DNA of 64,000 nucleotides from Methylophaga sp. (lineage in GTDB: Bacteria > Pseudomonadota > Gammaproteobacteria > Nitrosococcales > Methylophagaceae). A program made the position numbers and the translations under genes. The stretch spans positions 53,062-117,061 of the forward strand of contig PAJP01000004.1 of the NCBI GenBank assembly GCA_002706095.1, read 5' to 3'. The notes under the pieces were generated by a model. That model searched no databases. It saw only the letters and a program-made list of their open reading frames with translations, and was not told where the DNA came from. Shown here in pieces: positions 3,245 to 13,424 of the stretch. Positions within the stretch are counted from its first letter, which is position 1; each line of letters opens with the position of its first letter.

Positions 3245-4881
3245 GTGAGTTAACGAAGCCAGTGAAAGAACAGGAATCGTTTCGTCAGGCGATGGGCTGG
3301 TTACATACCTGGGGTGGGTTGCTTGCCAGTTGGGCCTTATTCACGATCTTCCTTACGGGCACGATTGGTGTGTTTGATGTTGATATCACGAAATGGATGA
3401 AACCAGAGGCAGCCGTTGTATCCGGTTTCGATCCAACCGCGATGACCGAACAGCAACGTGTTGACACGATAAAGAAAGGTCAGGCTTATCTTGAAAAACA
3501 TGTTCCTGATAGTCATTTCTGGGGGATTGGACTGCCAACGGAAACAGAGCCAGGAATACGTCTGTTCTGGCGGGACGAGCAGAATGAATTTCAACATGCC
3601 TTACTGAGCCTGGATGATGGTGAACTCATGCCAGCCGCTGAAAATCGTGAAACCGAAGGGGGGCATCATTTTGTGCATATGCATTATGAGTTTCATGCGG
3701 GTATGGCAGGCATCTGGCTGGTCGGCTTTTTTACCATGATCATGCTGGTGGCCTTAATTACCGGCATCATTATTCATAAACGTATTTTCAAAGATTTTTT
3801 CACCTTCAGACAAAAGAAAGGACAGCGTAGTTGGTTAGATGGACATAATGCCTCCGCTGTTTTAACGCTGCCTTTCCAATTGATGATTGCTTACACCGGT
3901 TTGGTGGTCTTTTTATCGATTTACATGCCTGCAGGTGTATTAGCTAATTACAGCAATCCACAGGTATTTTTTTCTGAACTGCTTGATGAGCCCATGCACA
4001 GAGCAGAAACAGGCGTGGATGCAGATGTGGTGGATTTATCCATTTTGTTCCAGCGAGCAGAAGTGATGATGGGTAAACCCGGACGATTTATGAACGTTGA
4101 GCATCCGGGAGACAGTAGCGCTGTGACCAAGGTGTTTGGTTGGTTTGATGAAAAAGACTATGAAGGGCAATTATTGAGGGATGAAATTGGCAGTGTTCAG
4201 TTTGATGCGACCAATGGTGATGTGATGCATCTGAACCCACCAGGTGAATACGATAAGGGCACGCCCATGGCATCACAACGTGTGATGCGTATCATGCACT
4301 TTGCCAACTTTGGTGGCTACAGCGTTCGCTGGTTATATTTCATTATGGGTATGGCGGGTGCGTTGATGATGGCAACAGGCGCCATCTTATTTCTGGTGAA
4401 ACGACGTCAGAAATCACTTAATGAATTTGGCTCGCAAACTGCACGCGTTTATCGGGTAATCGAAGTACTGAATATCGCTGCTATCAGTGGTCTTGCGGTG
4501 GCTTGCATGGCTTATTTCTGGTTGAATCGTTTGATTCCGGTCGATATCGCTGATCGGGCATCCTGGGAAATAAAAGGCTTTTTCTATCTCTGGCTAGCCA
4601 TGCTGTTTCATGCCGCTTGTCGACCTGGCATGAAAGCCTGGTTTGAACAATGGAGTGTCTTTACCTTACTGGCATTGTTGTTACCTGTCATGAACCTGCT
4701 GACAACCGGACATTGGCTACCATCGTACTGGCTGGCAGGAGACTGGAGCAGTGTCGGCTTTGAAGTGACCGTATTGGTGTTCGGTTTGATGAGTCTGGGG
4801 CTGGTGTTATTTTTGCGTCGAAAAATGCGATTGCAAGTTCGCCCGTCAGCGCTTAAAACTCAGTCGGAGGCACTATTATGA
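3241..4881 (+). CDS. PepSY-associated transmembrane protein (siderophore-iron reductase type)
   Basis: A 546-residue inner-membrane protein of the PepSY_TM family, which includes proteins proposed to reduce or release iron from siderophores in the periplasm. It starts with a membrane segment after the WLHTWGGLLASW motif typical of the family. It then carries a periplasmic region with an HHFVHMHYEFH histidine cluster (about residues 140-152), further membrane segments, a second periplasmic PepSY-like domain, and four or more helices at the C-terminus. The ATG at 3241 overlaps the upstream stop, which favours it over the in-frame start at 3172 inside the upstream gene. Its own stop overlaps the next start (ATGA). 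No TonB-dependent receptor is adjacent, so the substrate cannot be named. Confidence 0.85.
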   Translation: MSELTKPVKEQESFRQAMGWLHTWGGLLASWALFTIFLTGTIGVFDVDITKWMKPEAAVVSGFDPTAMTEQQRVDTIKKGQAYLEKHVPDSHFWGIGLPTETEPGIRLFWRDEQNEFQHALLSLDDGELMPAAENRETEGGHHFVHMHYEFHAGMAGIWLVGFFTMIMLVALITGIIIHKRIFKDFFTFRQKKGQRSWLDGHNASAVLTLPFQLMIAYTGLVVFLSIYMPAGVLANYSNPQVFFSELLDEPMHRAETGVDADVVDLSILFQRAEVMMGKPGRFMNVEHPGDSSAVTKVFGWFDEKDYEGQLLRDEIGSVQFDATNGDVMHLNPPGEYDKGTPMASQRVMRIMHFANFGGYSVRWLYFIMGMAGALMMATGAILFLVKRRQKSLNEFGSQTARVYRVIEVLNIAAISGLAVACMAYFWLNRLIPVDIADRASWEIKGFFYLWLAMLFHAACRPGMKAWFEQWSVFTLLALLLPVMNLLTTGHWLPSYWLAGDWSSVGFEVTVLVFGLMSLGLVLFLRRKMRLQVRPSALKTQSEALL

Positions 4882-5213
4882 GTGCAGCCATGATGATGAG
4901 CATTGCCTTGTGTTACGCCGCTATGAGTAGTCTTAGTCTGGCGATGCCACGACATTTGATGGAAGTGACCAACCGTCGGTTAAGTGTTGCACAGACTCGA
5001 CTATTACGTTGGACAGCAAGCCTGATTCTGGTCTTAGCATATTTACCTATGTGGCAGGTGTGGGGAGCAGGAACCGGCTTTGTGATTTGGGTATCGATAT
5101 TGTCTGTGACCAGCATAGTATTGGTGTTACTGCTGTCTTATTGGCCAAAGTGGGCGGTCAGAATCGCTTTTCTGATGATGTTATCGGCCAGCGTTTTGTG
5201 GTTGATGCAGTAA
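4878..5213 (+). CDS. DUF3325 family membrane protein
   Basis: A 111-residue protein with three to four hydrophobic helices and little else. It fits DUF3325, the usual third member of the DUF3649-PepSY-DUF3325 set. It overlaps the preceding gene by four bases, so the three genes form one translationally coupled unit. It has no catalytic motif and its role is unknown. It probably forms a membrane complex with the PepSY protein (inference from constant gene linkage). The stop codon lies inside the left arm of the hairpin at 5204-5237. Confidence 0.8.
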   Translation: MSAAMMMSIALCYAAMSSLSLAMPRHLMEVTNRRLSVAQTRLLRWTASLILVLAYLPMWQVWGAGTGFVIWVSILSVTSIVLVLLLSYWPKWAVRIAFLMMLSASVLWLMQ

Positions 5214-5237
5214 CGACCAGATGATCGTTACTGCATC
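5204..5237. terminator. Long hairpin between convergent operons
   Basis: A perfect 13-bp stem (GATGCAGTAACGA at 5204-5216, complement at 5225-5237) with an 8-base loop sits between the DUF3325 gene and argH. The T tract after it on the plus strand is interrupted (GTGTAACTTTTG), so it is a plausible but imperfect terminator. It overlaps the DUF3325 stop codon. Confidence 0.6.
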
Positions 5238-5251
5238 GGTGTAACTTTTGT

Positions 5252-6634
5252 TTAACGTTGACTGCGTGCTTTTCTAATCGCCGCTTTAACCTGTTCTGGT
5301 GCTGTACCACCTAAGTGGTCACGAGCAGCGACAGAACCTTCCAAAGTCAGCACGTCAAACACGTCTTCATCAATATTGGCAGAAAACTGCTGCAGTTCAG
5401 CCAAGGTGAGTTCAGACAGATCTTTTTTATGTTTGATGCCATAAGCGACCGATAAACCGACTACTTCATGTGCATCACGGAATGGTGTGCCTTTACGTAC
5501 CAGATAATCAGCCAAATCAGTGGCAGTAGCATAACCTCGTAATGCAGCCTGACGCATATTGTCGGCTTTCACGGTGATGACCGACATCATATCTGCATAA
5601 ACGCGTAGTGAACCTAATAAGGTATCAATCGTATCGAACAAGGGTTCTTTGTCTTCCTGATTGTCTTTGTTGTAAGCCAGAGGCTGGTTTTTCATTAAGG
5701 TCAGCAAGTTGAACATATTGCCGTACACGCGGCTGGTTTTACCGCGGATTAACTCAGGCACATCCGGATTCTTCTTCTGCGGCATGATGGATGAGCCGGT
5801 ACAGAACGCATCACCTAAATCAACAAAATCAAACTGCGCCGATGACCAGATAATTAACTCTTCTGAGAAACGGGATAAGTGCATCATCAGAATCGAGGCG
5901 AAGCTATTGAACTCAATGGCAAAGTCACGGTCACTGACCGCATCCAAAGAGTTTAAACAGATACGATCAAAGCCTAATAAGCTGGCGGTCATTTCACGAT
6001 CAATCGGGAAAGTGGTGCCAGCCAGGGCGGCTGCGCCCAATGGCAGGCTGTTTGCTCGTTTAGCACAGTCTTCCAGGCGTTCAGCATCTCTGACTAACAT
6101 TTCGTACCAGGCCATCATGTGATGACCAAACGTCACTGGTTGTGCTGTTTGTAAATGAGTAAAACCGGGCATGATAGTCTCGGCTTCACGTTCAGCAACG
6201 TTGAGTAAGGCTTCTTGCAAACGATTAAGCTGCTGACCGATAGGCTCAATCATATCGCGTAGATAAAGGCGCACATCAGTGGCTACCTGGTCATTACGTG
6301 ACCGGCCAGTGTGAAGTTTTTTACCGACCTCACCGATCAGGGCGATAAGACGAGCTTCGATATTCATGTGCACATCTTCTTGAGCGATAGACCACTCAAA
6401 GTCGCCGTTCTCAATTTCTTGTTCGATTTGTTGTAAGCCCGCAATAATTTGATCGCGTTCGTCTACTGTCAGTACCTTGACTTCAGCCAGCATGGTGGCG
6501 TGCGCAATTGAGCCACGAATATCCTGACGGAACATACGCTGATCAAATTGCACGGAAGCGGTAAATTCTTCGACAAACTTGTCGGTAGGCTGCGTCAGTC
6601 TGGCAGATGAGAGTTTTTTATTGGCTGTAGTCAT
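5252..6634 (-). CDS. argH: Argininosuccinate lyase
   Basis: The last step of arginine synthesis: cytoplasmic cleavage of argininosuccinate into arginine and fumarate. The protein has 460 residues, a normal length. The fumarase/aspartase superfamily signature [11 protein letters not shown] is at residues 280-290 and contains the catalytic serine loop. Other conserved segments are [13 protein letters not shown] (about 108-120) and the [11 protein letters not shown] region. It is divergent from hemC, an arrangement common in gammaproteobacteria. A good sigma-70 promoter lies 36-62 bases upstream of its ATG. argC lies separately in the same window at about 42 kb, so the arginine genes are scattered. 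Confidence 0.97.
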
Positions 6635-12437: not shown

Positions 12438-13424
12438 TTAGACATCGAAGTTGTCGTTAACAATGACCCTGTTTCTACCGGCGTCTTTTGCGCTATACAG
12501 CATACGATCAGCCGTTTGAAGTAAACTCGATTGAGTTTGGCCGGGTTGATATTCCGTCAGTCCAATACTACAGGTCAATGAAATATCATGTCCTTCTTGC
12601 TGACAAAATGAATGTTGCTCAACGTCCAGCCTGATACGTTCAGCGAGGGTTTTTGCCTCATTCATGTCCGTCTCTGGAAGAATTAACAGGAACTCTTCAC
12701 CCCCGTAACGTCCAAGGTGGTCACTGTGTCTGGACACGTTGGATATAATTTGAACAGCCTCCGTTAACACAACATCACCCTGTTGATGCCCATATTGATC
12801 ATTGACATATTTGAAGTGATCTAAATCAACCATTAATAGACTTAATGGACGTTTGTAGCGGGTCGCGCGATCAATTTCATCTGTTAAGCAAGACATCAAA
12901 CCTCCTCGATTTAACACCCCTGTTAATGCATCTGTGCGCGCTAGCTCTTCTAGTTCTTTGGTTCGCGCTTCAACCCGTTGTTCTAGTAATTGATTGGCTT
13001 CAAGTAACTCTTTTTTAGCCAGTAATAATTGCTCATTTTTAACTTTAAAGTCTTTAATACTGGGAAAAGCAATGACTTTGGGAAGTAAATATACAATCAT
13101 CACTGTGGTGGTAATAGAGACGATACCAGTGATGAGTTTTGCCATACCACTGATGTAGTAATACCCATGCCAGATATTAACCAGGTTAATGAGGTGAGTG
13201 ACGCCGCAGAGAAAAATAAAAGCGGCAAACATGACAAAAATCCAGTTGAAAGCAAAATCATTTCTTTTTTTGACAAGCTGGATAAGGGCGATAGGAATGA
13301 GAAAGTAGGCCATCACCGTTAGTGCATCACCCACCACATGAAGAAAAAGTAAGTCACTCTGCCATTTGTAACAATGACCGTGGGGCATAAAACTGCCATC
13401 AAATAGCTCATTGATGATATTCAT
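12438..13424 (-). CDS. Diguanylate cyclase with ethylene-receptor-like N-terminal membrane sensor
   Basis: A 328-residue protein expected to make cyclic di-GMP. Residues 20-120 form three membrane helices closely resembling the ethylene-binding domain of plant ETR1 and cyanobacterial relatives. The copper and ethylene site residues have counterparts at D33, Y40, I70, C73 and H77, with CGVTHLIN matching the ETR1 CGATHLIN motif. A short coiled coil (about 125-163) leads into a GGDEF domain with the active-site GGEEF at 241-245. A product-inhibition I-site RHSD (232-235) lies exactly five residues ahead. The start has a G-rich ribosome site. It is a monocistronic gene convergent with the antiporter gene. 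The enzyme activity is well supported. The ligand (ethylene, another alkene, copper or none) is inference. Confidence 0.92.
   Translation of the reverse strand: MNIINELFDGSFMPHGHCYKWQSDLLFLHVVGDALTVMAYFLIPIALIQLVKKRNDFAFNWIFVMFAAFIFLCGVTHLINLVNIWHGYYYISGMAKLITGIVSITTTVMIVYLLPKVIAFPSIKDFKVKNEQLLLAKKELLEANQLLEQRVEARTKELEELARTDALTGVLNRGGLMSCLTDEIDRATRYKRPLSLLMVDLDHFKYVNDQYGHQQGDVVLTEAVQIISNVSRHSDHLGRYGGEEFLLILPETDMNEAKTLAERIRLDVEQHSFCQQEGHDISLTCSIGLTEYQPGQTQSSLLQTADRMLYSAKDAGRNRVIVNDNFDV

Follow-up and report, generated by a model that had tools for sequence, protein, structure and literature searches.

We found that a short gene of Methylophaga, a marine bacterium that feeds on methanol, encodes a protein in which an N-terminal domain of the ethylene receptor type (ETR1_N) is followed by a predicted helical linker and a GGDEF domain that has the motifs of a diguanylate cyclase. 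With moderate confidence, we read this protein as a one-component receptor that depends on Cu(I), responds to ethylene or a gas like it, and would directly set cyclic di-GMP synthesis.

An ETR1_N sensor and a GGDEF domain are encoded in one intact gene

The window (the whole stretch of DNA that was analysed, 64,000 nucleotides) contains an intact open reading frame of 328 aa on the minus strand, running from 13424 to 12438 with the stop codon included. Pfam analysis showed that residues 25-119 match ETR1_N (PF25487) with 111.1 bits against a cut-off of 27, and that residues 163-319 match GGDEF with 156.6 bits against a cut-off of 23.8. These two were the only domains above the Pfam cut-offs in the 328-aa protein, and a histidine kinase output was not among them. 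An earlier note on this DNA had described an ETR1-type sensor fused to a diguanylate cyclase, and the intact frame, together with two matches far over their cut-offs, bears this out. The features of the gene are listed below.

12438..13424, minus strand: whole gene, ETR1_N, helical linker and GGDEF (open reading frame, Pfam, collinear starts)
13371..13385, minus strand: PHGHC motif, residues 14-18, ahead of the first membrane helix (135-domain alignment)
13068..13352, minus strand: ETR1_N domain, ethylene-binding by homology, residues 25-119 (Pfam, AlphaFold helices)
13293..13328, minus strand: putative binding-site residues D33, Y40, I43 and P44 of helix 1 (alignment)
13194..13217, minus strand: putative binding-site residues I70, C73 and H77 of helix 2 (alignment)
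13137..13139, minus strand: K96 in helix 3, counterpart of ETR1 K91 and AzoEtr1 K98 (alignment)
12939..13067, minus strand: linker, residues 120-162, with a predicted single long helix at 123-161 (AlphaFold2 model)
12468..12938, minus strand: GGDEF diguanylate cyclase domain, residues 163-319 (Pfam, motifs, structure matches)
12720..12731, minus strand: I-site R232-H-S-D235 (motif)
12690..12704, minus strand: active-site GGEEF, residues 241-245 (motif)

The start codon is collinear with the start of most aligned homologues, and the M. aminisulfidivorans MP protein (L049) has five extra residues ahead of it. None of 1000 shuffles of residues 1-132 matched the sensor profile built here at E values up to 10; the window sequence is part of this profile, on which the Pfam match does not depend. 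The genus was read as Methylophaga from proteins of same-genus genomes (L014, L016, L018, L019 and L021), which appear to match, in that order, those of the named Methylophaga records L046, L048, L053, L047 and L049. The window genome (3.57 Mb, 25 contigs) has a single ETR1_N match, which is the 328-aa fusion, and the whole fusion protein matches 48 places in its own genome, itself counted, mostly through the GGDEF part. We rejected an assembly or frame artefact as the source of the fusion, because the protein recurs elsewhere: a second genome of the same species has it, as do three Halieaceae records and eight more Methylophaga genomes, one of these with a stop codon.

The sensor domain keeps the binding residues of ETR1

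By alignment, all seven residues required for binding in ETR1 are kept in the window protein as D33, Y40, I43, P44, I70, C73 and H77. Five of these counterparts (D33, Y40, I70, C73 and H77) had been proposed earlier and were confirmed, while I43 and P44 complete the seven. C73 and H77 correspond to C65 and H69, which ligate Cu(I) in ETR1, and we take the ETR1 counterparts of Y40, I43, P44 and I70 to be Y32, I35, P36 and I62. The signalling lysine, K91 in ETR1, is also kept as K96 and aligns with K98 of AzoEtr1, the histidine kinase receptor of Azospirillum brasilense (525 aa, L153).

The AzoEtr1 sensor is 43% identical to that of the window protein over 96% of the first 124 residues, and has the same seven residues, the lysine, the PHGxC motif with counterparts of H15 and C18, and a counterpart of H29. 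The alignment of the two contains a single gap, before residue 12, and is gap-free over residues 12-121, so that D35, Y42, I45, P46, I72, C75, H79 and K98 of AzoEtr1 stand at a constant offset of +2. The correspondence of ETR1 D25, C65, H69 and K91 to AzoEtr1 D35, C75, H79 and K98 is given in passages of PMC11819568, where AzoEtr1 is also reported to have all seven residues and to bind ethylene through its first 130 residues. AzoEtr1 differs in its output, which is PAS plus histidine kinase with an adjoining response regulator gene, whereas the cyclase of the window protein is in the same chain.

Among 135 bacterial sensor domains, 113 have all seven residues and 111 have the seven plus the lysine. 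At least one of the seven is substituted in the other 22; the 12 short fusions placed in the sensor tree all fall outside this group. D33 is kept in 129 of the 135 domains, and the K96 position is lysine in 126. Part of this set comes from at least 80 loci (before duplicate removal) that were found by a pattern holding F69, I70, C73 and G74, so the conservation of these four is partly built in; D33, H77, K96 and PHGxC lie outside the search pattern.

The PHGxC motif before helix 1 is as strongly conserved as D33, with H15 in 130 and C18 in 129 of the 135 domains, and H29, one turn before D33, is kept in 113. We know of no role in print for PHGxC or H29, and from their conservation it is possible that they form a second copper site. 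C18 is the one N-terminal cysteine of the window protein; plant dimers are linked by N-terminal cysteines. Cyanobacterial sensor proteins are likewise reported with one N-terminal cysteine in passages of PMC6682694.

Structure prediction places the putative copper ligands on one membrane helix

We modelled the whole protein with AlphaFold2 from 65 aligned sequences (mean pLDDT 91.2, pTM 0.63) and its first 160 residues from 73 sequences (mean pLDDT 92.8, pTM 0.72). Membrane helices were predicted at residues 23-53, 60-83 and 89-118, followed by one helix at 123-161 that runs into the cyclase. Structure prediction had been proposed as a check on whether C73 and H77 could form a site, and both models put the two four residues apart on the same membrane helix, while D33 lies on the first membrane helix and K96 on the third. 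When projected on an ideal helix, the binding residues span no more than 100 degrees in helix 1 and no more than 60 degrees in helix 2. The positive-inside charges fit a predicted topology with the N-terminus outside and the cyclase inside. The linker has a weak heptad signal: in the register that scores best, 62% of the a and d positions are hydrophobic.

A PDB search with the whole model returned GGDEF-containing proteins for 50 of the 50 among the matches listed. For the sensor, a sequence search of residues 1-155 against solved structures gave no matches, and in a Foldseek search of the sensor model against the PDB none of 121 matches reached E <=0.001. The latter result is in line with the statement that a high-resolution structure of the ETR1 sensor does not exist (PMC13012798). 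The same paper reports that an AlphaFold model of ETR1 fits measured EPR distances less well than an ab initio model and that neither fits fully, so models of the ETR1_N domain, including ours, should be read with caution.

The GGDEF domain has the motifs expected of an active cyclase

Sequence analysis of the output domain showed the motifs DxLTGxxNR, DxDxFKxxND and GHxxGD, an RxxD motif five residues ahead of GGEEF, and DRMLYSAKDAGR near the C-terminus. D200, R232, D235, G241, G242, E243 and E244 are invariant in nine aligned homologues. The intact GGEEF and RxxD I-site claimed previously are therefore present along with all active-site, metal and nucleotide motifs, as would be expected of an active cyclase.

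Short fusions are found in Methylophaga and Halieaceae

ETR1_N exceeded its cut-off in 14 of 24 Methylophaga genomes, with one match in each. Ten of these (G000, G407, G004, G011, G012, G014, G017, G020, G021 and G022) have the short cyclase fusion and four (G002, G003, G005 and G006) have an ETR1_N histidine kinase instead, a form that includes PAS according to a Pfam run on one example of each form. The two forms were never found together in the genus, which is expected in about 9% of cases by chance at 10 and 4 of 24 genomes, so we claim nothing from their mutual absence. The other ten genomes had no ETR1_N match, and five of them (G007, G008, G009, G013 and G016) are at least 94% complete. 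In G012, the copy L022 on the minus strand has an in-frame stop at the counterpart of W21, between PHGHC and helix 1, and the later frame is open; sequencing error, decay or an internal start are possible causes. The ten genomes without a match and the copy with a stop indicate that the gene is dispensable.

Wider sampling put ETR1_N over cut-off in 15 of the 370 genomes from the class and in 31 of the 397 from the phylum, with the window genome counted in both. The architecture of 47 sensor proteins from these samples outside Methylophaga was assigned by profiles and motif patterns built here, with 12 of the 47 reading frames cut by locus ends; this set omits a 26-residue fragment over the cut-off (G606) and matches under the cut-off. 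None of the 47 was a short direct ETR1_N-GGDEF fusion. GGDEF was found in four (L238, L239, L240 and L244), which resemble the window protein in having ETR1_N and cyclic di-GMP domains in one chain, but differ in their length of at least 863 aa (L239 is cut off at 882), their EAL motif and their sensors, which fall in three other places of the sensor tree. Three of the four also differ at ETR1 binding positions, for example D to N at D33.

The scan of a genome collection, which yielded the at least 80 loci mentioned above, found short fusions in at least five Methylophaga and at least three Halieaceae records. An ETR1_N protein with a GGDEF motif was also seen in Methylobacter (L110). In Oscillatoria, two proteins (L100 and L119) combine ETR1_N with a chemoreceptor-type (MCP) motif at about residue 1074 of 1237, and this motif suggests a gas-to-chemotaxis version. 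Three short reading frames, L029 (203 aa), L133 (143 aa) and L037 (148 aa), have an ETR1_N-like domain and little else.

The fusion history leans towards a single event

The Halieaceae proteins (L050-L052) have the same domain order and a similar length and start, and share one sensor clade with the Methylophaga proteins; they differ in their cyclases and in their neighbouring genes. Methylophaga and the three Halieaceae share 63-65% identity over the sensor, 44-51% over the linker and just 40-41% over the cyclase. A single branch with SH-aLRT 99 separates all 12 short fusions (nine from Methylophaga and three from Halieaceae) from the rest of a sensor tree of 133 rows, in which the histidine kinase form of Methylophaga lies elsewhere.

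For the cyclase, a careful tree of 69 rows grouped the same 12 at 88/93 and in 86% of 200 bootstrap trees, which is not decisive; in a quicker tree the 12 did not form one group and four sensor-less rows lay among them. In a cyclase-only search, the Methylophaga and Halieaceae cyclases were the best match of each other in the respective genomes (130.6 against 124.7 bits, and 130.2 against 118.6). The window cyclase also matches paralogues of its own genome with up to 126.8 bits and 44% identity, above the identity to the Halieaceae cyclases, so a single fusion event is not proved. Separate fusions of the same sensor to different cyclases are not favoured, given the mutual best matches and the 88/93 group, although neither is decisive. 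The sequence comparisons thus lean towards one fusion event with later transfer or loss.

Compared with the M. aminisulfidivorans MP gene, pN and pS are 0.094 and 0.66 in the sensor and 0.132 and 0.75 in the cyclase. Synonymous change is near-saturated and non-synonymous change is low, and the fusion gene is under purifying selection within the genus.

No neighbouring gene is common to all the fusions compared

Downstream of the fusion lies a convergent kefB-like gene (Na_H_Exchanger and TrkA_N), preceded by genes that we take to be hemD, hemX and hemY; upstream, on the same strand as the fusion, are a DUF4174 gene, a DUF3482 GTPase gene and a DUF2868 gene. A comparison of five Methylophaga with three Halieaceae records found none of ten window genes besides the fusion in all eight, which would be expected if the receptor is self-contained. 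Two of the five Methylophaga records retain part of the kefB-like, DUF4174 and GTPase gene order, as does the second genome of the same species. Among the window neighbours tested, we saw neither a response regulator partner like that of AzoEtr1 nor a hint of ethylene. Promoter and terminator scans gave one site each, against shuffle means of 4.4 and 1.4. In Methylophaga lonarensis (L053), the gene next to the fusion on its upstream side (3340-5850) encodes 837 aa and has a GGDEF match.

Haliea strains that grow on ethylene are known (PMC4036023). A link of the fusion to an ethylene-oxidising copper monooxygenase found no support, as PF02461 (PmoA-like) was absent in nine of nine genomes; as a control, a Methylobacter genome matched this family, whereas the window genome and Haliea alexandrii did not. 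With this one family tested, the window genome gave no indication of ethylene chemistry. Two of its proteins exceeded the copper-ATPase cut-off, which points to copper handling.

The protein may act as a gas receptor with a cyclase output

In the mechanism that we propose, C73 and H77 of the three-helix N-terminal domain, which is probably a dimer, would hold Cu(I) next to D33 and K96. The domain would bind ethylene, or a ligand resembling it, from the periplasm or the membrane, and binding would shift the helices; the helical linker would relay this shift and alter the meeting of the two GGDEF domains, which would change the rate of cyclic di-GMP synthesis. We infer the copper, the ligand, the dimerisation, the activity and the sign of control alike. 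Ethylene is expected to lower cyclase output, a guess for the sign by analogy with AzoEtr1, since in A. brasilense ethylene or disruption of AzoEtr1 is reported to reduce attachment and ethylene to lower cyclic di-GMP (passages of PMC11819568). Such a receptor would plausibly let a gas control attachment or swimming in a single step.

Cu(I) ligands cannot be told apart by sequence, and it is conceivable, if rather unlikely, that the Cu(I) site is genuine and the cyclase reports another Cu(I) ligand (carbon monoxide, acetylene or other alkenes) or copper status. The lack of ethylene chemistry in the genome, for the one family tested, would fit such a signal, as would H15, C18 and H29, which are further conserved possible copper ligands. 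On the other hand, AzoEtr1, the nearest tested homologue compared here, binds ethylene, and the Kd of the ETR1 domain for Cu(I), about 1.3e-15 M in passages of PMC6586836, is more in keeping with a bound cofactor than with a gauge of copper. A bolder form of the gas receptor, which we hold to be doubtful, is a minimal switch from hydrocarbon gas to cyclic di-GMP in one 328-aa protein, where H15, C18 and H29, as a second set of candidate copper ligands of bacterial ethylene sensors at the periplasmic edge, would hand Cu(I) to C73 and H77, so that a dedicated copper-loading pump like RAN1 of plants would not be required.

The sensor might also be a mere membrane anchor or dimerisation module derived from an ethylene receptor, with no ligand and a constitutive cyclase, and the 22 substituted domains, which include three of the four long GGDEF-EAL forms, would agree with this. 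We regard it as improbable, since buried Asp, Cys and His are unneeded in an anchor, none of the seven residues nor K96 is changed in the short fusions, and conservation is higher in the sensor than in the cyclase. Degenerate domains are common among GGDEF proteins, but a cyclic di-GMP-binding or regulatory domain in place of a working cyclase is very improbable here, with the active-site, metal-site and I-site motifs intact and the seven key residues invariant in nine homologues.

Relation to known receptors and meaning of the fusion

The cyanobacterial receptors SynEtr1, GeiEtr1 and GeiEtr2, compared by description only, share the N-terminal ethylene-binding domain, but they signal through a histidine kinase combined with GAF, PAS or photoreceptor domains. 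Passages of PMC6682694 report that GeiEtr1 and GeiEtr2 keep all seven residues and that the genes grouped with GeiEtr2 include one for a diguanylate cyclase domain. The 5TMR-LYT - GGDEF proteins likewise have a multi-helix membrane sensor common to histidine kinases and cyclases (passages of PMC10653868), and are set apart by description, the sensor domain having another name.

The earlier note had implied that a link from this sensor to cyclic di-GMP is rare. Among the papers listed, our literature search, which did not reach figures and subscription papers, recognised no publication on an ethylene-binding domain fused to a cyclase. The implied rarity is tempered by the four GGDEF-EAL proteins among the 47 and by passages of PMC7700396, which describe a wide range of outputs for bacterial ethylene-binding domains, some absent from plants; the word GGDEF does not occur in that text. 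Bacterial ethylene-binding domains with varied outputs are thus known, and what is new is the minimal direct cyclase form. A link from ethylene to cyclic di-GMP has already been hinted at by A. brasilense, though the receptor there is a histidine kinase.

How ETR1-type receptors relay ethylene binding, and their exact output, are called obscure in passages of PMC6586836, and open questions of ETR1 signalling are also set out in PMC13012798. The fusion protein couples an ETR1-type binding site, by way of a single predicted helix, to an enzyme whose product can be counted. If the protein is responsive, the step from binding to output could be read in E. coli by a cyclic di-GMP reporter and dissected by mutation. 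The protein would also connect a gas with attachment and motility by a direct molecular path, whereas in Azospirillum this connection is described as a whole-cell effect.
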